Virus record (IMG/VR): IMGVR_UViG_3300031746_001387
Span: 1 to 38,922 of that record
Length of the DNA: 38,922 nucleotides
From: a virus
Strand: one strand, 5' to 3'
Under the pieces are notes generated by a model. That model was not told the DNA's origin. It saw nothing but the letters and a program-made list of their open reading frames with translations, and searched no databases. Shown here in pieces: positions 15,935 through 36,800 of this stretch (its first letter is position 1; each line of letters opens with the position of its first letter). Made by a program: the position numbers and the translations under genes.

Positions 15935-16987
15935 TTAAACAACACCCGCAATACCCACGACCGCGCCAACCCCGGTTGAGATTCCCTTCATTATGTTCGA
16001 GAACAAACCAGGTTGAATCCCCATCTGAGTCAGCGCTTGTATGTCCTGCGATGTCAGCTGACCAGTCGTTTGGTAACTCTGGATGATTTGATTCATTGAG
16101 GTTGCGGCCTGTCCACTCAAACCACCGAACAGGTTAGCCATCTGACCGTAACCGGCTTGCTTAAGTTGTGCAATGGTCGTCTCCAAACCGGCTTGAGCAG
16201 TCGTAGTCGCACGTCGTCCAGCGGCAACTTCACCTTCCAACCCTGCAGCACCAGTCACACCAGCCCGACGACCCGCAGCAATACCGGACTCCAATCCGGT
16301 TTCAAGCCCTGCACGTTGTGCTCCAGTCGTTACCAATCCACCAAGTCCAGCCTCACGTCCAGCGCGAATTTGACCCTGCAACGCGACGTTCGCGGCAGTA
16401 TCTGCTTCTGCCGTTCTTCCAGCCGCTTCGCGGGTTAACCTTGCGGTTGAACTCGTGAAGCCCGGGGCATACCCACCTGTTTGAGCTTGGCGACGTGCGA
16501 GGTTGGCTCGCAATGCGTCGTAAATACCGGAAGTTCCAGCAGTGGACGATCTAATAAACGCTTGCGATTGTCCGGGCGTGAATCCGCCGGTTCGAGCATA
16601 ATTACCGTAACCAGCTTCAGCCGCCCCGAACGTGCGCCCCATACCGGCCCGTATACCACTAACAGCGTTCGGGTCGTACCCACCACCAGCGGCCATCGTT
16701 CCAAATTGAGTGCGGAGATTCGCTAACTGCTCCCCACCGTATCCACCAGTTGACGCCTGCTCTGACAACGTGGTACGAAGACGGTTAAGTTGCTCCTCAT
16801 CCATGCCACCAGTCTTGGCCATCTCCCCGAGACCACCGACTAGGCCAGGATACATAGCATTAGCACGTTCAGTAGCTTGCGTTCCAGCGGCACCAGCGGT
16901 TGCAGCCATTTGCTGCTGTTGGGCAGCATTAGCCTTGATCTGTGCCTGAGCAGCGTCCGAGGCAGCCTTACGTTCCTTTTTTCCCAT
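15935..16987 (-). CDS. Gly/Ala-rich internal virion protein, 350 aa (T7 gp14-position)
   Basis: The N-terminus is a charged helix (GKKERKAASDAAQAQIKANA) rich in Gln and Ala. The middle contains irregular repeats built on GG-Y/M plus LRT- or AGRRAG-like units, for example AAGRRAGVTGAAGLEGEVAA. The C-terminus has a small hydrophobic segment (GISTGVGAVVGIAGVV) that could insert into a membrane. These are typical properties of podovirus ejection proteins that form a channel across the host envelope. The start overlaps the end of the GNAT gene by 20 bases. Confidence 0.6.
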   Translation of the reverse strand: MGKKERKAASDAAQAQIKANAAQQQQMAATAGAAGTQATERANAMYPGLVGGLGEMAKTGGMDEEQLNRLRTTLSEQASTGGYGGEQLANLRTQFGTMAAGGGYDPNAVSGIRAGMGRTFGAAEAGYGNYARTGGFTPGQSQAFIRSSTAGTSGIYDALRANLARRQAQTGGYAPGFTSSTARLTREAAGRTAEADTAANVALQGQIRAGREAGLGGLVTTGAQRAGLETGLESGIAAGRRAGVTGAAGLEGEVAAGRRATTTAQAGLETTIAQLKQAGYGQMANLFGGLSGQAATSMNQIIQSYQTTGQLTSQDIQALTQMGIQPGLFSNIMKGISTGVGAVVGIAGVV

Positions 16988-17366
16988 TGAACACCTCAGT
17001 CATGGCCACACCATGACAACGAACGAACCCGAAGCGTTTCTCGAGAAACTTAGCATACAATTCAGGATATACAAATGCGTGCCATTCATCAAGCCCAACT
17101 TCCTGTGCTTCCTGCCTACCAAGTTCGTACAATTCTTGTATTACATTTGCACGCTCACTACGAGGTAATGATTTGTCAACAATTAATGCCACCTCCGAAG
17201 TTAGGCGTATGAAACCAAACCCAACAACCTTACCATCAATCTCGGCAACTGCAATTCCTAAACATAGTGGACTGTTCAAATCCGGGAACGGAAACTCACT
17301 ATTCGCTGCATGTAAGTCTTGCAACGGTTTAGCATCGTTATCGTTCATTGGACGAACAGTTATCAT
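16968..17366 (-). CDS. GNAT-fold acetyltransferase-like virion-module protein, 132 aa
   Basis: The start MITVRPMNDNDAKPLQDL, the strand pair GIAVAEIDGKVVGFGFIRL and the final YAKFLEKRFGFVRCHGVAM with the FGF turn are typical of GNAT N-acetyltransferases. The acetyl-CoA pyrophosphate-binding loop (usually Q/R-x-x-G-x-G/A) reads SLPRSERANV and is degenerate, so activity is doubtful. It lies between the nozzle/fibre genes and the internal proteins. Small GNAT-like proteins are seen at this spot in other podoviruses, so it may be structural or modify a virion protein. Confidence 0.65.
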   Translation of the reverse strand: MITVRPMNDNDAKPLQDLHAANSEFPFPDLNSPLCLGIAVAEIDGKVVGFGFIRLTSEVALIVDKSLPRSERANVIQELYELGRQEAQEVGLDEWHAFVYPELYAKFLEKRFGFVRCHGVAMTEVFNGKKGT

Positions 17367-24438: not shown

Positions 24439-25698
24439 TTAGTACCCAGACGGCACAGCAAGTCCGTAGATGTACGAACCGGCCGCCGGGTTGTTCATGA
24501 AGATGTCGAACGCAGCAACATAGTAGAATATGTTGCTACATGCGACACCACCAGAAGCACCACGAATCTCGAAGATTCGCTTGCCGTCCTCCGGTGCAGT
24601 GTAGAACGAAGCTTCGTGCATGACCGCACGACCCCAGACATTGAGGTCGATGAAGTCGATGCGCGTCTTGTCCCAGGAGAAGGACTTCTTCAGCGGAGCA
24701 CCCGCGATCTGTTTTGGCCCACCGAAGTACAGGTCGAGTCCTTTGTTCCCACCCGTGGTGTTGATCTGGGTGACCAACATGCCCAACTGCTCATAGGCTT
24801 GCTCTTGACACGGGTGGCACCACGCTTGGACTTTGCTTGTGTTCTCCAAGCCGACGCGGTCACCGATCTTGTTGATGGCGAGGCGAGGCAATGGAAGAGT
24901 CAGGGCTGAACCGCCGGCGTTTACAGCATTGGCACGGATTTCTGGGGTCGTGGCGCGGGGGAAACCTAGCCAGTATCCAGTTGATGCGTTGCTGTTGTGG
25001 TACGGGACGCCCTTGATCGAAGCGGGCGCTGTACCGTCCAGACCCGAAACGACGATCTTGTCAGTTGGAGCCGCCCCAGCCACAGCAAGCACTTGAATCG
25101 TTTTGTTGGCGTGGTCGTAGACCAGAATCGGTCGTTCCGCGCCGGTTGTCCGGTTAGTGGTAAGAGCGGCATTGTACACGTTGATGTACTGACCGAAACG
25201 GAGCAAACGGGTTCCGAAGCCGTCAGTCGTTAACGTGTATGTGTCGTTGGTCGCAGCGGCGACTGTGGTGATCGTGCCGAGGACACCGTTACCGGCCGTC
25301 ATGCAAAGTGAATCGCAGTGACGGCGAAATTCCGCCATGCCCTTGGCGAGCAGGTTGCGGAAGTTGTTGAGGACTGCTTTCCGACGGTCGTCGGTGACCC
25401 AGTGTGCGAGCGTGGTGAACTCGAAACCAATCTTGAGGAAGGCCGGCGTGATCGTGGCCTTGTCGAAGACCGGGCCGGTACCACGCCCCAGGTCGCCACC
25501 ATCGGGGTCGAAGTGACCGAAATTGCCTCCTGGACGGAGTTCCAGCGGGATACGCATGTCCCGTTTCGACACGATCTCAACTGGTCTCCGCTCCACTTCA
25601 CGGTAAAACGTGCCTTCACGGTCGAATAGCGTGGGCACAGTTGGCAGGACTCGTTCCAATTCCAGACCGAGTACCTGCGCTTCAGCTTGGGCTGCCAT
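24439..25698 (-). CDS. Major capsid protein (HK97-fold likely), 419 aa
   Basis: Size, the position right after a scaffold-like gene, and the sequence pattern fit a podovirus major capsid protein. There is an N-terminal helical arm (LELERVLPTVPTLFDREGTF), then a region rich in beta strands and Gly/Asn/Thr loops, then hydrophobic aromatic strands near the end (CSNIFYYVAAFDIFMNN). No enzyme motif is present. It starts 4 bases after the scaffold stop, with GGAGTAACCAC before the ATG, and is followed by stable hairpins. The HK97 fold is inferred, not directly visible. Confidence 0.75.
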   Translation of the reverse strand: MAAQAEAQVLGLELERVLPTVPTLFDREGTFYREVERRPVEIVSKRDMRIPLELRPGGNFGHFDPDGGDLGRGTGPVFDKATITPAFLKIGFEFTTLAHWVTDDRRKAVLNNFRNLLAKGMAEFRRHCDSLCMTAGNGVLGTITTVAAATNDTYTLTTDGFGTRLLRFGQYINVYNAALTTNRTTGAERPILVYDHANKTIQVLAVAGAAPTDKIVVSGLDGTAPASIKGVPYHNSNASTGYWLGFPRATTPEIRANAVNAGGSALTLPLPRLAINKIGDRVGLENTSKVQAWCHPCQEQAYEQLGMLVTQINTTGGNKGLDLYFGGPKQIAGAPLKKSFSWDKTRIDFIDLNVWGRAVMHEASFYTAPEDGKRIFEIRGASGGVACSNIFYYVAAFDIFMNNPAAGSYIYGLAVPSGY

Positions 25699-25702
25699 GT
25701 GG

Positions 25703-26941
25703 TTACTCCTTTTTAAGCGTCACTCTGCCTTCAAGCATGTCCAGGTCCGATGTCTTGGACCAGTCCACTTTGTTGGCATCGACCGGACGAGTAATGCGCT
25801 CCCCACGTCCTGTGGAGGCTGCACCCTCAACCGGATCGGTTTTGCCTGGACCGGGTTTACGAGTACTCTCCTTACCACCCATAACACCCGATCTCACCTT
25901 GGTGCGAACGGCAGGCATCACCGCTTTGGCACGTGCCAGGTACGCGGAGACCAAGCTGGCTTTCCATCTGCGGTTGAATCCATCCTGCTTTGTTTTGGCC
26001 CAGATAGAATCCATAAGCGCTGTATGACTGGGGTCGTCATGCAACGCGGTTTGAACCTGTTTCAAGATGCGTTCGACCATCATCTCGCGTAAATCCTCTC
26101 CATACGCATTGTCAGGGTCGAGTCCATCCAGAATCAAACCGCGTAACTTCTCGGTGCCATCGCCGATGACATCTTCGAGTAACGTGTTGAAGCGCTCGTT
26201 GAGCACAGCGGTTTCCGTCGTCACGGTTGACTCCGCCGGTGGGGCTTCACGCTTCTTGATCGTAGTTTTAGCTCCCGTCGCTACCTCGGCGTCACCGAAA
26301 ATGTACTGTGCGATATGAAGCGCGGCGTTCTCCAAGTTCTTGTTGCCACTACGCTGCGCTTCCAAGTGTACGGTGCGGAGCAAACCTTCCACGACAGGAG
26401 TGGTCGCTTCGTAGTACAAGTTGGCGTCGGCCTTATGCAATGTAGGGAGGAAATTAGCCGCTAACAAGCCGAGTGAAGCCTCACCACCTTCCTTCACCGC
26501 TGCCAGGAATTGACCCAGGTCTTCCGGTTTCCCGGAGGTTACCAGCGTTTCGAGGTGGGTAAAATCCTTCAGCGTCTCACCAGCTACACGAGCGTCCTCA
26601 ACTGTTGGGAATACCTCCGTATAGGCCGCCTCACGTCCGAACATATGACGGACGTCCGGGAAATCCTTGAAGAACTTCGGATACTTCTCTTGAACTTCCC
26701 TGATTGACGGACGATTGAGTAGTGGAGCGTCGTCAGGATGAGCTTCAACTACCTCTTCGACTACTTCCTTCTCCTCCCCTTCCTCACCTTCCTTCTTGGG
26801 AGGAACTTCCTTCGAAGGAGGTTCGACCTTCTTCTCCACTACTGGAGTCACTTCCGTTTCTAACAATGCGACGTCTTCTGCTATGTCACCTGACACCGCA
26901 TTAGGCGTTCTGACTGGTGCTATTGCCGCTGTGCTACCCAT
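25703..26941 (-). CDS. Capsid assembly scaffold-like protein, 412 aa
   Basis: The protein is acidic and helical. Residues about 30-70 are a Lys/Glu/Pro-rich low-complexity stretch (KKEGEEGEEKEVVEEVVE). Long helices with few aromatics follow and the C-terminus is basic (VTLKKE after a Gly/Pro/Lys-rich linker). These are usual features of scaffolding proteins, whose basic end touches the capsid protein. It lies immediately before the capsid gene. No protease motif is visible, so scaffold removal would need another mechanism. Confidence 0.7.
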   Translation of the reverse strand: MGSTAAIAPVRTPNAVSGDIAEDVALLETEVTPVVEKKVEPPSKEVPPKKEGEEGEEKEVVEEVVEAHPDDAPLLNRPSIREVQEKYPKFFKDFPDVRHMFGREAAYTEVFPTVEDARVAGETLKDFTHLETLVTSGKPEDLGQFLAAVKEGGEASLGLLAANFLPTLHKADANLYYEATTPVVEGLLRTVHLEAQRSGNKNLENAALHIAQYIFGDAEVATGAKTTIKKREAPPAESTVTTETAVLNERFNTLLEDVIGDGTEKLRGLILDGLDPDNAYGEDLREMMVERILKQVQTALHDDPSHTALMDSIWAKTKQDGFNRRWKASLVSAYLARAKAVMPAVRTKVRSGVMGGKESTRKPGPGKTDPVEGAASTGRGERITRPVDANKVDWSKTSDLDMLEGRVTLKKE

Positions 26942-26942
26942 G

Positions 26943-27110
26943 TCACTCCTCCTCCATTTGCTTGCAACCTACTGCACGACCCCACAGTAAGTCCACCTTC
27001 GTTTCGAGCACGGAGAGTCGACTCACTATCTTGCTGTACGCCGCGAAACCCAGAGCGATCAGGACTATGAGCTGAATTGCAAGCTGAATAACGTTGTTCG
27101 AAGATGGCAT
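26943..27110 (-). CDS. Small single-pass membrane protein, 55 aa
   Basis: ATG at 27110 follows TTAGGAGTGA. One hydrophobic segment (VIQLAIQLIVLIALGFAAY) is followed by a short coiled-coil (IVSRLSVLETKVDLLWG) and an acidic end. The layout resembles XhlA-type or other small phage membrane proteins. It sits between the periplasmic LTxxQ gene and the scaffold gene. A role in lysis, membrane contact or virion assembly is possible. Confidence 0.6.
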   Translation of the reverse strand: MPSSNNVIQLAIQLIVLIALGFAAYSKIVSRLSVLETKVDLLWGRAVGCKQMEEE

Positions 27111-27172: not shown

Positions 27173-27553
27173 CTAAAATCCCAATCGCACCAGTAGTACG
27201 TCCCGCTGCGCTGGAGTTAGCAGTTGCCACACGTCGCGCCGGAACTGTACCCGAATCTGTTTGTCCTCAGCCGCCAGCCTTCGGACTTGACGAGACAGTG
27301 TGCCGATCCGGGACAGATCGGGGCTTGTGGCGTCCAGTAGAACATCAAGTTCATTAACTGCGGCAGCCATCTGCGATTGCAATCCGGCAGTCGCCGAGAG
27401 ACGGGTCTGGGCTAGCCTGTTTACCGCGTCCAGTTGCGAAACGGTAAGGGTCACATCGGACAAAGCCCCCAATGCCACCGTATCGGCGTGTTGTGCGAAG
27501 ATCACGGACGCCATCGCAAGAGACAGAACAAGAACGATCAAAAGGCGCTTCAT
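27173..27553 (-). CDS. Secreted Spy/CpxP-like (LTxxQ) periplasmic protein, 126 aa
   Basis: MKRLLIVLVLSLAMASVIFA is a textbook Sec signal peptide, with cleavage likely after A20. The mature part is all-helical and carries two LTxxQ motifs (L36-TVS-Q40 and L112-TPA-Q116), the hallmark of the Spy/CpxP family of periplasmic chaperones and stress sensors. The start at 27553 is chosen because GGGGGT sits just upstream and because it gives the signal peptide; a longer reading to 27685 runs into the fibre gene. It lies 8 bases after the fibre stop. A periplasmic helper for the secreted fibre is my inference. Confidence 0.7.
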   Translation of the reverse strand: MKRLLIVLVLSLAMASVIFAQHADTVALGALSDVTLTVSQLDAVNRLAQTRLSATAGLQSQMAAAVNELDVLLDATSPDLSRIGTLSRQVRRLAAEDKQIRVQFRRDVWQLLTPAQRDVLLVRLGF

Positions 27554-27561
27554 GTTACCCC

Positions 27562-30500
27562 CTATTGGCAGATGTAACCAAACGTCTGTGCAGTCATGGT
27601 CGTTGCCTGCACAATCAGCGTACCAACAGCCGTGGTCCAGTTCAACCCCGCGACAGCAACCGCATTGTCTCCATACACCGCGCAACTGGGCCGCACGGCA
27701 TACGCAATGTTGAATGTCATCGTGCAGGATGTCAGTGCACCGCCGCCGGTGGTGAAGAATCCTCGGTGGTCGGTCGATCCCGCTTCCATCGCGGGAGTGC
27801 CAGTGCCGCAGGCTGATAGCGTGGGCACCGCCGCTTGGGTCGTTATAACGTGGCCGCGCAACAGGGTCTCGGTAATAGTACTCGGTCCCAAGACCGCCTG
27901 ATTAGCCTTTGTAGGGTTCGCATCTACGCCGATGGCAATAGAGTTGCTGGTGTCCGTGGAATTGTTCAGTGTGCCCGTAAACGCCGCAGCGGGGAACGCG
28001 ATTCCGCTTAGCGTAAGTACGTCTGCCGAGGTGACGGTGAACTGATAAATCGTATTGTGGACCAAGCCCACAGGCGGTGTACCGCCAGTCAATAAGTACC
28101 GCACGTTCACTTTGCCGCCCGGAGTGCCGAAACCGTGTGCGACATAAGTAATTGTATTTGCCGCTGTGATGCTGGCTTCGGTGATGTTCTTGAGGCTTCC
28201 TGCGTCGTCGGGAAAATAGATGGAACTTTGGTAGCCAATCCTAACAGTATTAGGCCAGTTGTTGCTTCGGCCTCCGCTGTATCCCATGGCCGTCTGGTAG
28301 GCTCCGGTGTTGTACTGGCCTGCGTAGACGCCTATGACCATCTGGTTGGCTCCGGTGTTGGAGTTGCCTGCGCTGTATCCCATGGCTACCTGGTTGGCTC
28401 CAGTGTTGGAGGCGCCTGCGTAGGCGCCTATGGCCATCTGGTTGGCTCCGGTGTTGGACTGGCCTGCGGCGTTGCCCGTAGCTGTCTGGTTGGCTCCGGT
28501 GTTGCCGTAGCCTGCGGCGTTGCCCGTAGCTGTTTGGTCGGCTCCGGTGTTGGACTGGCCTGCGGCGTTGCCCGTGGCTGTTTGGTTGGCTCCGCTGTTA
28601 GAGACGCCTGCGTTGACACCCCAGGCCGTAGACCCCGCCGCGGCCAGAGAACCGCCCGGCACACCCATCACGGTAATATCCACGCGGCCGGTCTGCGTAG
28701 CGTGCGTAGCATTCGGGAAACTGGCCTGAAACCTCCCCGCCTCCTCGATATTCCCGCTGGCGTCTTCGGCGTACAGAACAAGGGCGGTGCCAATGCCGTT
28801 ACCGGCGGTGCCGGTGGTGCTTCGAGTCAATTTCAGAACGTCAAGGATGGTGTTCGTTGTTGCTGAATCAATGGTGCCGGCAAAAGGCGCGGTTGCGTCC
28901 GCTGCCTGTCCACCACCAAGACGAGCAAATTGCGGTGTGAGCGTTGTCCCAAGGTCCCCTGCAACGATTGACGTGCAGGTGCTCGTTGGCGCACTATCAC
29001 CAGCCAAAGTAAAGCCAGTGACAAATTGATTGGTACAGGCTGTCGGCGTGCCCACGCCAGAAGCCGCAAGTGTCGAAGCCGCGTATACCGCCGGCGTCGC
29101 ACCATTCGACTTTGGATAAGTGCCTGCGCCTGCCGCCGCCAAACTTGCACCGAGACCGCCGTAGGTGGTACCCAATGCTGGTCCAGTCAGTTGAACGGCG
29201 CCCGAAGACAGCACCCTGATGCCAGTCGTTCCCCCACCGGTAATCAGGCCAGCCAGAATCAGGTTCCCGCCCTGGACTTCCTTCAGACTGGCGGATTCAA
29301 TAGTGAACGAGCCACTGGAAACACTCGCTACCGCGATCACGCACGGAAGTGGGGTAGTCTTAGACTTGAAAGTGATCGTGTGGCTACCCGCCCCAAGTGG
29401 GAGGTACGCAACCGCAGCGGCACAAGCGGTTGTGACCGTCATTATGCCGCCAACCTGGGTGGGGGCGGCGGAAATTACGTAGGTAAGTTGATACCCACGA
29501 TTGGCAACCATAGCCACTGCGGGAACCGCCTGGGTAAGGTTTCCAGCCCCCGTTGCGGCGTAGGTATAACGGGCAAATGTCCCCACCACTGCAAACTCAG
29601 AATTGACAGTCCACGCAACGTTGGAGAAGTCTGCCGGAGCCGTAAAGGATTCCGTGCCAAGCACAGACGGATCGGCAACTTCGATGTTGCCGCCCCATAC
29701 ATCGACTTTCTGGCCTGGAATGGCGCTGCCAGCCCGCGCGCTCGTCCCAAGACCCGCATAGCCGGTCGTGTCGATGAACAACGCGGAACGGTTCGGCGTG
29801 GCGGCTGCTCCAGCAAAGAAGTCTAGCGTGCGCCCCTGAACCACGGCGTCCACATAATCGGACGCTGCATCATTCACAAAGCCCACACCCACCATGCTTA
29901 TGGCATAATCCACGACGGTCATGTTCGCCCCACCGCCGGTGGTGCTGGTGTGTATCATGGCCGGGTATACAGCGTGCGCCGGAATCCCGATGCCGACGCG
30001 CAGAAACTGCGGGGTGTTCGTGGTGCCAAGTTGCGTAGTGGAAATCGTGCCCGACAGGTCCGTAAACGCGGGCTGTGCTTTGCTCACCACGCCCAGCGTC
30101 GAAATGGCCGTCAGGAAATTGTTTGCGGCTCCGGCATCGGGCTGCACGGCGACACTGTCTGCGTTTGGTAAGGTGAAGGTCCTGTCAACCGTAGGGTCGG
30201 TAATGGTGAGGACCGTCTTAAAAGTGCCCGCAGTGGCGCCGTCAAACCAGAAAGGCGTTGCGCCAAGCCATGTTTTGACCCCGGTGAGCGTTTGAGTGCC
30301 GGTCGTAACCGCGCCGCGCGCCGTTGCCGAGGCGTCGGGTAGGTGGAACGTGGCGGTATTCGCCGCATGGGCAATGTTGAAGTCGGTGCCCGTGGTGCCT
30401 ACCGTCAGCGCCTTGTACTCGTTCGCCGTGCCGGCCGCATTCATCCCCACCACCGTGTTGGCCGCCCCGAGCGCCAAGGGAGTCGGGGTCGCTCCTGCAC

Positions 30501-30987
30501 CGCCGCCCACTATCAAGGTGTTAGCAGTGAGTAGAACACTGCTCGCCAGTGTAGTGGGCGAAATAAAACCCAGTACACCACCTGATACCCCGGTTGCAGG
30601 AAATGCGAAGCGTGACCAGGCATGTATGCTGAAGCACGACGTCAACGCAACAGTAGGCGACGTACCTGCGGTCAATACGCTCAGATTCGCATACCAGTAA
30701 CGATACGCCCCAGAGGCTGAACCCATGTCCACCCCAGTCGTACTCGTCACGGCAGTGACCTTAGTGAACGGTGTCTGAGTTGCAGGAAGTTCGTTGCCAG
30801 CTTCAATCGAAATAGTTACACCAGTCGGCGTGCCTGTGGTGTAATAGCTGAAATTGCCGGCAACAAATTCCTTGGTCGTGTCGGCCAGGAGAACGACTCG
30901 ACTGACCTTGGCAATTGTAGTCGTCCGGCACGTCTGCGCGTAGCACGGCAAGGCGAGTACGAGTAACGCGAACACGAGTTTACGCAT
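27562..30987 (-). CDS. Tail-fibre-like protein with N-terminal Sec signal peptide, 1141 aa
   Basis: MRKLVFALLVLALPCYA before QTC forms a clear signal peptide. Next come beta-rich regions with fibre patterns (FHLPDASATARGAVTTGTQT, LPNADSVAVQPDAGAANNFL). A carbohydrate-binding-like part follows near 450-570, then seven 16-residue repeats (797-908), then a C-terminal beta region with SIAIGVDANPTKANQAVLG. Tailed-phage fibres normally lack export signals, so this is unusual. By eye the gene is more GC-rich than its neighbours, which hints at transfer. Its ATG lies inside the end of the previous gene with GGAGTG upstream, so translation is coupled. It could be a virion fibre or a protein exported to the host surface. 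Confidence 0.75.
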   Translation of the reverse strand: MRKLVFALLVLALPCYAQTCRTTTIAKVSRVVLLADTTKEFVAGNFSYYTTGTPTGVTISIEAGNELPATQTPFTKVTAVTSTTGVDMGSASGAYRYWYANLSVLTAGTSPTVALTSCFSIHAWSRFAFPATGVSGGVLGFISPTTLASSVLLTANTLIVGGGAGATPTPLALGAANTVVGMNAAGTANEYKALTVGTTGTDFNIAHAANTATFHLPDASATARGAVTTGTQTLTGVKTWLGATPFWFDGATAGTFKTVLTITDPTVDRTFTLPNADSVAVQPDAGAANNFLTAISTLGVVSKAQPAFTDLSGTISTTQLGTTNTPQFLRVGIGIPAHAVYPAMIHTSTTGGGANMTVVDYAISMVGVGFVNDAASDYVDAVVQGRTLDFFAGAAATPNRSALFIDTTGYAGLGTSARAGSAIPGQKVDVWGGNIEVADPSVLGTESFTAPADFSNVAWTVNSEFAVVGTFARYTYAATGAGNLTQAVPAVAMVANRGYQLTYVISAAPTQVGGIMTVTTACAAAVAYLPLGAGSHTITFKSKTTPLPCVIAVASVSSGSFTIESASLKEVQGGNLILAGLITGGGTTGIRVLSSGAVQLTGPALGTTYGGLGASLAAAGAGTYPKSNGATPAVYAASTLAASGVGTPTACTNQFVTGFTLAGDSAPTSTCTSIVAGDLGTTLTPQFARLGGGQAADATAPFAGTIDSATTNTILDVLKLTRSTTGTAGNGIGTALVLYAEDASGNIEEAGRFQASFPNATHATQTGRVDITVMGVPGGSLAAAGSTAWGVNAGVSNSGANQTATGNAAGQSNTGADQTATGNAAGYGNTGANQTATGNAAGQSNTGANQMAIGAYAGASNTGANQVAMGYSAGNSNTGANQMVIGVYAGQYNTGAYQTAMGYSGGRSNNWPNTVRIGYQSSIYFPDDAGSLKNITEASITAANTITYVAHGFGTPGGKVNVRYLLTGGTPPVGLVHNTIYQFTVTSADVLTLSGIAFPAAAFTGTLNNSTDTSNSIAIGVDANPTKANQAVLGPSTITETLLRGHVITTQAAVPTLSACGTGTPAMEAGSTDHRGFFTTGGGALTSCTMTFNIAYAVRPSCAVYGDNAVAVAGLNWTTAVGTLIVQATTMTAQTFGYICQ
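28264..28599 (-). repeat. Seven 48-bp tandem repeats coding a 16-residue beta-roll-like motif
   Basis: The anchor GCTCC(G/A)(G/C)TGTT recurs exactly every 48 bases on the + strand text (28301, 28349, 28397, 28445, 28493, 28541, 28589). In the protein this gives units such as NTGANQTATGNAAGQS, like the YadA/Hep_Hag head repeats that build trimeric beta-rolls. Repeats keep frame, and third-base changes show age. The array could expand or contract by recombination and so change fibre length. Confidence 0.85.
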
Positions 30988-31324
30988 TTTTCACTCCGAT
31001 GATGGTCACGGTGACAGTTCCCGTTCCGGTCAGTATCACGAGGTTGGCCCTGATCCAGCGAACGTACTGTTGTGAGATTTTCCCTGACGCGTTTCCAACA
31101 ACACTGGTGGAAGCAAGTGAGAACCAATCACCAGCGATAGCAGGATCGACATTGTTTCCCTCAATGTCGACCTGGAGAGCGGTGACGCTAGTATCCGCCA
31201 GGATAGCACTCCAGGCGAAGTCCTTGATGTCAGGCGGGACAGCGAAATATGTTCCGACTACAGCGGTAGCCGCTGCGTTCAATGAAACGACGGGATAACC
31301 CGTCATAAGTGCTTCAACTGGCAT
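30980..31324 (-). CDS. Small structural protein, 114 aa
   Basis: The protein is beta-rich with Ala/Val/Thr strands (YPVVSLNAAATAVVGTYFAV) and ends TGTVTVTIIGVKNA, like a small virion or head decoration protein. It starts 11 bases inside the portal gene's end and stops inside the fibre gene's first codons. There is no motif of enzymatic function. A head-surface or head-tail role is inferred from position and composition only. Confidence 0.55.
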   Translation of the reverse strand: MPVEALMTGYPVVSLNAAATAVVGTYFAVPPDIKDFAWSAILADTSVTALQVDIEGNNVDPAIAGDWFSLASTSVVGNASGKISQQYVRWIRANLVILTGTGTVTVTIIGVKNA

Positions 31325-33512
31325 TTGCTTCTCCTCCAGGTGTAGGTGCAGGGGCCGGTGGAATAGCTTGCATCATTTCCACCGTAACTGCTTGCTTGTG
31401 TTCTGCGAAATGCAATATACAATTTGCATAGGCCGTTGGGTTATTATCTTTCAATTTAGCACCTAAATCTCCGATGAGGAAACTTTGCACAACTTCCATG
31501 TGTACCTCATTATCATCAATCTCCTCAATCGGTACGCTGCTAGTGAATTGACCCTCCATCATTCCAGGTTGAGGTTGTCCAGCTATCAGAACCATCAACT
31601 CACGCAACTGCTTGACTCGTTGATCTTCGCCTGGAATCTTGAATCCGGTCAGACCAACTATCGACGAAGCCTTAGCCGCATTGAGCGGACTCGCAATGAC
31701 CGAATTGATTTCAGGTGAGTTCATTTTGAACAGGTCCAATAGAATACCACGTTGCTGAGCAATTGATACTGGAATTGCAGTTTCAGTTTCAGGTTCGAGG
31801 AGTTCAAACGCACCCTTCAAATCTTCAACCTTGACCGTGACCTTCCGAAACGCGTCGGAACCAATGGGCTTGGAAAATGACTCATCCTCCAGCATGTTAT
31901 CCTTGTAATGCTGAACAGCGAGGTACATCAATTCGCCCCACCAAATACGAACGTAATCGTATATGATTGCTAAACGTTGAAGGGCGTAGGAGCGAGATAA
32001 TGAATACTCACCTAACGTTTTGGAACCCTCCGCCGCTCCGCCGTATATGCTCGGCGTATCCCCAACCACGAATTGACTGTCACGATCGACGATGCCGATT
32101 AAATCAACTGCTTCCTTCGGGAATGTGGCCGAGCGAAGTGTGAAGAATGCTTCCTCAATTCGTTGTCCCGGTCGTGTCGTTTTTGTTGGGTAGATGAAGC
32201 CTGGTTCGGCTTCCTGCTTACTGAATGTGTCGAAGTCAAGAACTTCAGGGTCAGCGAACGTTGAAGGGATTCCGTATTCAACGGATTGAATCAACAGATT
32301 CATCAACGCGTTGCGTATCTCCTGCTCTTGGACCATTGAACCGAGTAACGGGTCAGCATGAACACCCTTCGACGGTCCACCCTTACCAATGCGCCAACAT
32401 GAGTCCAGATTTTCATTCGCCACTTCCGCGATTTCGTCCGATATGATTGCGGCGTATAATCCGTCAGGGAACTTCGTCCTCATTTCCTTCAACACGGGAT
32501 CATTTTGATCCGCTGAGATAATGTTGTACATCGCAGGACGAAACCAACACTTTTCAAGCGTTGTTAAATCCTGATGAGGTGGTGCGTGGAACGGTCGAGG
32601 GGCCATAACTGATGTCGAACGCATGACACGCTCGAAATCGTCCGGCCCACCCGGACCAATTTTATCAGCTAAATCGGTGAACAACGCACGCGCTTCCGCG
32701 TAGTGCAGATCGACGAAATGAATAAGGTATCCTATACCTTGTTGACTCTTAGCGTAACTTGGAACCTTAACATCCAACGGGCCGAACACGTCAATTACTG
32801 GACGTGATTTCTCGACTGAATCCTCACTGAGAAGTACAGGAACTTCCTCCTCAAATTCGGGCACCTCTTGCAAGGGCACCCCACATTGTGGGCATTGAAT
32901 GTTCGCTTGCTGAACATTCATCGGTTGTTCCGCGCCACATTGCGGACATACATAATGAGCAGGTGTTACATTCTTCCTACGCCCGTAACGTGGAACCATT
33001 ACTGTGCCGAACACTTTATTCTTATAATCCCGAATATAACCAGCAAGAAACCCTTCATTGCACAGGAGGAATAGTGCGTGGATGAGTAATAGCTTCGCCT
33101 TGTTGTAACGCTGGATATGTTCGACTGCATCATCAGCAGCAGACTTAGCTCGGATGTCAATTGGATTATCCGCGTCATGCGGGGCGAAACGAGTGCCAGG
33201 AACCTCGGACGACAACGCGGAGATGAGTGCTTCGCCATGTGCCTTGTAGACGTTGGTTACGAAGTCGTAGACGAACTTGACGTCCTCACGGGTTGAAGAA
33301 TCACGAAGTACATCGTGAGTCGGAACGCGCCAATCCTGTGCGTCCTCAGCCCAGAACACACTTTGTACGCCGTGCCAGAACTGATTGTTGCGTTTGAAAC
33401 ACTTCAACTGTTGCCAACGGAAGTATGAGTCCTCTTCCTTAGCATGAAGTCGAAGGTCAAGTATTGCCTTCTTCAGCCCTTCACTCAGGTCTGCTGGCTT
33501 GATCACTGGCAT
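31314..33512 (-). CDS. Portal protein with embedded zinc ribbon, 732 aa
   Basis: Size near P22 portal, position between terminase and scaffold/capsid, and features such as the helical start (SLFRW-like, here EEDSYFRWQQLKCFKRNNQF), a long central region with ESGAT-like loops, YSLSRSYALQRLAIIYDYVR and a Pro-rich end support a portal ring protein through which DNA passes. Residues 189-210 contain CPQC-x14-CPQC, a zinc ribbon inside the body. That is not part of classical portals and may be an added clip or binding module. Portal identity is inferred from order and pattern. Confidence 0.75.
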   Translation of the reverse strand: MPVIKPADLSEGLKKAILDLRLHAKEEDSYFRWQQLKCFKRNNQFWHGVQSVFWAEDAQDWRVPTHDVLRDSSTREDVKFVYDFVTNVYKAHGEALISALSSEVPGTRFAPHDADNPIDIRAKSAADDAVEHIQRYNKAKLLLIHALFLLCNEGFLAGYIRDYKNKVFGTVMVPRYGRRKNVTPAHYVCPQCGAEQPMNVQQANIQCPQCGVPLQEVPEFEEEVPVLLSEDSVEKSRPVIDVFGPLDVKVPSYAKSQQGIGYLIHFVDLHYAEARALFTDLADKIGPGGPDDFERVMRSTSVMAPRPFHAPPHQDLTTLEKCWFRPAMYNIISADQNDPVLKEMRTKFPDGLYAAIISDEIAEVANENLDSCWRIGKGGPSKGVHADPLLGSMVQEQEIRNALMNLLIQSVEYGIPSTFADPEVLDFDTFSKQEAEPGFIYPTKTTRPGQRIEEAFFTLRSATFPKEAVDLIGIVDRDSQFVVGDTPSIYGGAAEGSKTLGEYSLSRSYALQRLAIIYDYVRIWWGELMYLAVQHYKDNMLEDESFSKPIGSDAFRKVTVKVEDLKGAFELLEPETETAIPVSIAQQRGILLDLFKMNSPEINSVIASPLNAAKASSIVGLTGFKIPGEDQRVKQLRELMVLIAGQPQPGMMEGQFTSSVPIEEIDDNEVHMEVVQSFLIGDLGAKLKDNNPTAYANCILHFAEHKQAVTVEMMQAIPPAPAPTPGGEANAS

Positions 33513-36386: not shown

Positions 36387-36800
36387 TCACTTGAAGAATG
36401 TATGAGCACCGATCACTACTGTGACTGGATGCAGTTCGGGTTTGCCTACTATGTTTTCCTGAAACCACGGCGAATTTGCGACCTTCAAATTTGCGTAATA
36501 TAACGCGCCTTGCGTAATGTCCATGTCCGTCTCGTCGTACACCTTCGAAGCAATGTCCATCGCCGCCTCGAACATGGAGTTCGGACGTACAGGCCACAAT
36601 ATGGTCTGCGCGTCGGACGGAACGGAGATTGAAGTAAATTGATTCCTGTCTGTAATGATCTTCGAGTAATCCTTATGCCATTCACGAACTCGATTCGCAA
36701 TGACGTGGGCACAAGCCCGCATCCCTTCCAAGCCTTCGCCACGCGCTTCGCGCCAAATTACTAGTGCTAACAGCACTCGATTGTAGTCAATCCACTGCAT
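36387..36800 (-). CDS. SleB/CwlJ-type cell wall hydrolase (endolysin), 137 aa
   Basis: IWREARGEGLEGMRACAHVI followed by ANRV is the hallmark of the Hydrolase_2 (SleB) family, with E18 the likely catalytic glutamate. The middle contains NQFTS and the end AHTFFK, both typical. No signal peptide is seen, so release needs a holin. Known relatives cleave the glycan strands of peptidoglycan. The gene lies in a lysis cluster with two small membrane-protein genes downstream. The start overlaps the upstream small gene by 34 bases. Confidence 0.88.
   Translation of the reverse strand: MQWIDYNRVLLALVIWREARGEGLEGMRACAHVIANRVREWHKDYSKIITDRNQFTSISVPSDAQTILWPVRPNSMFEAAMDIASKVYDETDMDITQGALYYANLKVANSPWFQENIVGKPELHPVTVVIGAHTFFK

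Follow-up and report, generated by a model that had tools for sequence, protein, structure and literature searches.

By the usual view, tail fibres of tailed phages fold and assemble within the cytoplasm, and the nearest precedents for a fibre with a signal peptide are Lom of phage lambda, an exported outer-membrane protein encoded within the tail operon for which a moron-like role has been proposed, and pIII of filamentous phages, a receptor-binding phage protein with a Sec signal peptide. Here we describe a 38.9-kb IMG/VR virus record with no taxonomy on record (IMGVR_UViG_3300031746_001387; this whole stretch of 38,922 nucleotides is called the window below), whose head-tail operon encodes a 1141-amino-acid (aa) fibre-like protein with a predicted Sec signal peptide and, next to it, a 126-aa helical protein with two LTxxQ motifs and a predicted signal peptide of its own. 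The locus differs from both precedents: Lom is a small outer-membrane protein and no large fibre, and it has no chaperone-like partner, and filamentous phages assemble at the membrane, whereas the window comes from a tailed double-stranded DNA phage. With phage tail fibres the protein shares a repetitive, beta-rich, mosaic make-up, and its exported relatives carry tail-fibre modules (Pfam PTR, PHROG), but the known fibres of eight isolate phages are made without a signal peptide. Fibres of this type are probably sent across the inner membrane, unlike textbook cytoplasmic phage fibres, and the locus would bring together fibre parts and a chaperone family, both known, at an unexpected site in the cell. 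A search of the open-access literature turned up neither tail fibres with signal peptides nor LTxxQ proteins encoded by phages.

The N-terminus of the fibre (MRKLVFALLVLALPCYA, with QTC after the predicted cleavage site) follows the n-, h- and c-region pattern of a Sec signal peptide. Signal peptides were called with a rule-based predictor, which was controlled on T7, P22, lambda, SU10, epsilon15, crAss001, B124-14 and MJing1. Of the 312 open reading frames of these phages it called 7, Lom, Rz proteins and a lipoprotein among them. None of the six proteins with a fibre-like composition was called, and the crAss001 spikes had no signal peptide at their starts by the same predictor. It could be argued from the simplicity of these rules that the hydrophobic stretch does not function as a signal peptide and that the fibre is a normal virion protein of the cytoplasm. 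We consider this very improbable, given the full n/h/c pattern on many different fibres, the lack of any such call on the fibre-like proteins of the isolate phages and the cysteine parity described below. After codon 13 the next in-frame start is codon 80, with none between codons 14 and 79, and therefore a full-length signal-less fibre is not available through a second start; two-start production was set aside accordingly.

Exported bacterial proteins often prefer even numbers of cysteines, disulphide bonds being the reason (PMC7678975). The mature fibre chain contains 10 cysteines. In a first pass, the cysteine count was even in 14 of 16 signal-peptide fibre-like proteins, compared with 17 of 36 signal-less ones with cysteine. 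A second pass, in which the predictor was stricter and located the cleavage site, loci were added and near-duplicates were removed, gave 15/16 against 21/47 among cysteine-containing proteins (Fisher p = 4e-4), and cysteine density was higher in the signal-peptide group (p = 2.6e-4), both p-values being approximate because we chose the cut-offs ourselves, adjusted the second pass once the first had been run, and included more than one protein from the same phage in several instances. The N-terminal domain (N-domain) shared by exported and signal-less proteins had no cysteine in all four signal-less copies and exactly two in five of the seven exported copies. Judged by these patterns, the signal-peptide fibres look disulphide-bonded, and cysteine parity provides an independent sign of export.

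The LTxxQ protein likewise starts with the n-, h- and c-regions of a Sec signal peptide (MKRLLIVLVLSLAMASVIFA, followed by Q), a feature conserved in all four family members, and contains the motifs LTVSQ and LTPAQ; at least two such motifs occurred in 0.5% of shuffles of the mature sequence. All four members matched Pfam LTXXQ (PF07813, the Spy/CpxP family) and Metal_resist below E 1 (best 6e-5 and 3e-4, respectively), and in NCBIfam ZraP was matched at 2e-6, with CpxP and Spy weaker. The top structural matches of its AlphaFold2 model (pLDDT 77) were ZraP, NccX, CpxP (Z 10.1), CnrX and Spy (Z 9.3), and the first 23 Foldseek matches all fell within this superfamily. Helical Z-scores of 9-14 are indecisive alone, and the protein was assigned to the Spy/CpxP/ZraP group because the structural matches agree with the profiles and motifs. 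Like Spy and CpxP, it is short and exported, with a helical hairpin whose predicted fold aligns over ~93-99 residues; it differs from them in being encoded by a phage beside a fibre gene. ZraP, CnrX and NccX (Metal_resist) gave the best Foldseek and VIA matches and the next gene encodes a small lysis-type membrane protein, which would suit a metal-binding, lysis or envelope-stress factor merely standing beside the fibre. We doubt this explanation, as the gene lies behind a fibre gene in all four loci and the protein lacks the conserved histidine or cysteine metal-binding residues of the ZraP/CnrX sensors: the mature protein contains a single histidine and lacks cysteine, and neither residue is conserved across the four members. 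With no obvious metal site, a putative Spy/CpxP-like periplasmic chaperone is therefore the better guess. An o-spanin was also considered and set aside, there being no lipobox.

Relatives of the LTxxQ protein (60-61% identical) were found in three IMG/VR contigs, L002, L003 and L004, and three viral scans returned these same contigs and no further members. In each of them the LTxxQ gene lies 8-13 nucleotides behind a fibre gene, as it does in the window (8 bases), and the fibre has a signal peptide in all three loci where its start is visible (window, L002 and L004); L003, whose LTxxQ sequence is nearly that of L002, holds only the fibre end. Additional signal-peptide fibres adjoin the LTxxQ-paired fibre in L002 and L004. 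The preliminary description had proposed a Sec-exported fibre followed 8 bases later by an exported helical protein of Spy/CpxP type, and had located the pair correctly; the predicted fold and family profiles, the recurrence of the gene order in three other phage contigs, the rule-based signal peptide and the cysteine parity all speak for it, and nothing in the fold, the conservation of the pair or the signal-peptide calls went against it. None of the three contigs appeared in the capsid scans and the L002 capsid-position protein appears unrelated, so transfer of the LTxxQ/fibre cassette between phages is probable; sharing of fibre modules reaches 97%. The PF07813 model, run over 30 phage records, found the L004 member alone and is thus too weak a probe by itself. 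The phages collection yielded no relative of the LTxxQ or capsid protein, and two scans of species genomes made to assign a host yielded no relative of the LTxxQ family or fibre module and no provirus.

Going beyond that description, signal-peptide fibre-like genes proved widespread, occurring in about a dozen uncultured phage contigs, related and unrelated. A scan with the capsid-position protein of the window gave 24 related contigs. Exported-type fibre genes occupy the same portal-scaffold interval in L005, L006, L015 and L022 and other places in L016, L021 and the record of L024, and are missing from other contigs. In the record of L024, four consecutive signal-peptide genes (130, 460, 385 and 400 aa; L062:9974-14076) include one with a PHROG tail-fibre match. 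Two further arrangements were observed. In L041 (16386-19459) a 909-aa signal-peptide spike-like protein is directly followed by a 114-aa exported proline-rich coiled protein, adjoining tail genes, possibly a second fibre/partner pair without LTxxQ; in L010 (8218-10070) an exported 151-aa helical protein lies directly upstream of another signal-peptide fibre, which is cut by the contig end.

The window fibre itself had no Pfam or PHROG match, though the preliminary naming of it as a fibre is supported by its exported relatives. Among these a Phage tail repeat domain (PTR, E 2.4e-15, above the curated cut-off) and PHROG tail fibre (6e-9) were matched, giving recognised tail-fibre modules on two exported relatives; the L004 protein also matches proteins that are annotated as tail repeat and tail fibre in phage isolates. 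Within the window fibre we distinguished mosaic modules (e.g. 711-775) and a repeat region (~796-910) that resembles Tenacibaculum phage proteins. The N-domain of the exported fibres is homologous to a 114-aa protein family, signal-less and encoded in the same operon (L029 vs L016, E 1e-14), to which the 114-aa protein of the window belongs (3e-7 against L016; profile comparison probability 95%), the N-domain of the window fibre being linked to it at profile level only (best direct E 0.007). For the 114-aa domain Foldseek gave nothing beyond weak beta-sandwich matches, and the N-domain had weak carbohydrate-binding-module-like matches.

Tail-fibre modules on exported proteins, and an N-domain in common with a signal-less protein of the same operon, are what one might expect if the exported fibre folded in the periplasm and docked on the virion tail or head only once lysis breached the inner membrane. 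The location in the head-tail operon agrees with such late loading: the spike cluster of crAss001 (gp22-gp26) also places spike/fibre genes between the portal and capsid genes, followed by lysis-type genes, although those spikes lack signal peptides. That a single genome can encode several exported fibres (L062 has four such genes in succession), and that signal-less fibres are shorter where exported ones occur, would fit as well. Against it stand the gain and loss of exported fibres among close relatives and the putative fibre that lacks a signal peptide and has an N-terminal segment in common with related phages, and we know of no precedent for it in tailed phages. We regard loading at lysis as the main rival and a serious one, yet rather unlikely; the wider proposal, an uncultured tailed-phage group with Sec-exported disulphide fibres, a Spy-type phage chaperone in the periplasm and virion attachment only at lysis, seems to us more doubtful.

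The signal-less putative fibre, which the preliminary description had not noticed, has an N-terminal segment common to related phages, where it occupies the same place after the nozzle-position gene; its C-terminal region is shared (40% over 292 aa, E 5e-57) with L004, which has the LTxxQ cassette as well. The exported fibre thus looks accessory, the virion having its own candidate receptor-binding protein, and because the phage retains this separate signal-less putative fibre we favour a role outside the virion. In such a scheme, the fibre would be made with a cleavable Sec signal peptide, pass the inner membrane unfolded and fold in the oxidising periplasm with formation of disulphide bonds, while the co-exported Spy/CpxP-like protein may aid the folding of this large beta-rich chain or prevent its aggregation. 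The mature fibre would retain the receptor-binding architecture of a tail fibre and, whether it stays periplasmic, reaches the cell surface or is set free by lysis, could bind receptors or glycans of the host envelope and would thereby block superinfection or the adsorption of progeny to the dying cell and its debris. Export, disulphides, chaperoning, the non-virion location and receptor blocking are all steps that we infer from sequence. Our tentative preference, at close to an even chance, is for a receptor-binding-type fibre that is exported by Sec, stabilised by disulphides and served by a Spy/CpxP-like helper of its own, and that works outside the virion as a surface coat or decoy.

Several observations weigh against this coat or decoy role. 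The signal-peptide calls on both the fibre and the LTxxQ protein rest on simple sequence rules, the LTxxQ match of the window scored 19.4 bits against a Pfam gathering score of 24.3 (L004 member, 23.9), and no recognised surface anchor was found in the window fibre. Some signal-peptide fibres sit at positions that virion spikes occupy in other phages, as with the portal-capsid spikes of crAss001 and the L041 spike beside a tail gene. Moreover, signal-less tail fibres in the capsid group tend to be shorter in phages that also have signal-peptide fibres, as would fit replacement of a virion fibre, although this inverse relation, from about ten phages on partly truncated contigs and with no phylogenetic correction, is suggestive only. 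The variable, accessory position of the exported fibres, together with window-fibre repeats that resemble those of surface adhesins and the weak carbohydrate-binding-module-like matches of the N-domain, could also indicate a moron-like adhesin that coats the infected cell and alters adhesion, aggregation or matrix binding. The secreted PEP-CTERM proteins encoded by capsid-related phages, another cargo directed to the surface, point the same way and speak for the coat or decoy role too: L013 (9308-9988) and L053 (12601-13281) encode secreted 226-aa proteins with PEP-CTERM-like C-terminal motifs (Pfam PEP-CTERM above cut-off in L053), possibly cargo for a host exosortase, and a hint that proteins of these phages end up at or beyond the host envelope. 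We nevertheless judge an adhesin improbable, since the absence of proviruses from the scanned species genomes gives no evidence of a long-lived infected state and the fibre has no detected anchor. If the coat or decoy role or the loading at lysis is right, the pair would represent either a new type of phage protein, made of fibre parts and serving at the surface or to block receptors, or an extracytoplasmic step of assembly, and would alter how receptor-binding proteins are picked in metagenomic phages.

The operon lies on the minus strand and reads terminase (PHROG match), portal-position gene, 114-aa gene, fibre, LTxxQ gene, 55-aa membrane gene, scaffold-position gene, capsid-position gene, adaptor (Pfam SU10_adaptor), nozzle-position gene and the 391-aa putative fibre gene (Table 1). 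No window protein matched a portal or scaffold profile in Pfam or PHROG, and both labels come from gene order. The pair does lie between these two genes, as first described, but shares the interval with the 114-aa and 55-aa genes, four genes in all. The fibre gene shares its first 8 bases with the end of the 114-aa gene and starts behind a good ribosome-binding site (GGAG), and AGGGGG precedes the ATG of the LTxxQ gene. The region consists of tightly packed phage genes with no stray insertion.

Table 1 Features of the window discussed in the text
Feature	Position	Strand	Description
Fibre-like protein, 1141 aa	27562..30987	-	Predicted signal peptide 1-17; beta-sandwich N-domain ~18-135; modules; repeats
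LTxxQ protein, 126 aa	27173..27553	-	Exported helical protein, putative periplasmic chaperone; Spy/CpxP/ZraP-superfamily predicted fold
114-aa protein	30980..31324	-	Beta-sandwich, no signal peptide; homologous to N-domain of signal-peptide fibres
55-aa protein	26943..27110	-	Putatively of lysis-gene type; one transmembrane segment and short coiled coil
Putative tail fibre, 391 aa	17363..18538	-	Signal-less; N-terminal segment shared with related phages, C-terminal region with L004
Portal-position gene	31314..33512	-	Label from gene order
Scaffold-position gene	25703..26941	-	Label from gene order
Major-capsid-position gene	24439..25698	-	Query for finding related phages

The pair had also been described as more GC-rich than its neighbours. 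This holds for the adjacent genes (fibre 0.593 and LTxxQ 0.570, against 0.525 for the 114-aa, 0.486 for the portal-position and 0.539 for the scaffold-position gene), but the capsid gene (0.577) and a 243-aa gene (0.589) are equally rich, so composition gives no foreign mark on the pair, and a foreign origin argued from GC was set aside. Elsewhere in the window, a 132-aa GNAT acetyltransferase-like protein (16968-17366) is encoded in the interval that separates the putative tail fibre gene from the next virion genes, with similar proteins at the same place in most related contigs, and an endolysin, a cell-wall hydrolase (Hydrolase_2, 36387-36800), lies upstream of the terminase and far from the LTxxQ gene. 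In L027 (1172-3721), the 849-aa terminase-position gene carries an apparent intein at the Walker A motif (GSGK-ALALDTIIPTPEGY).

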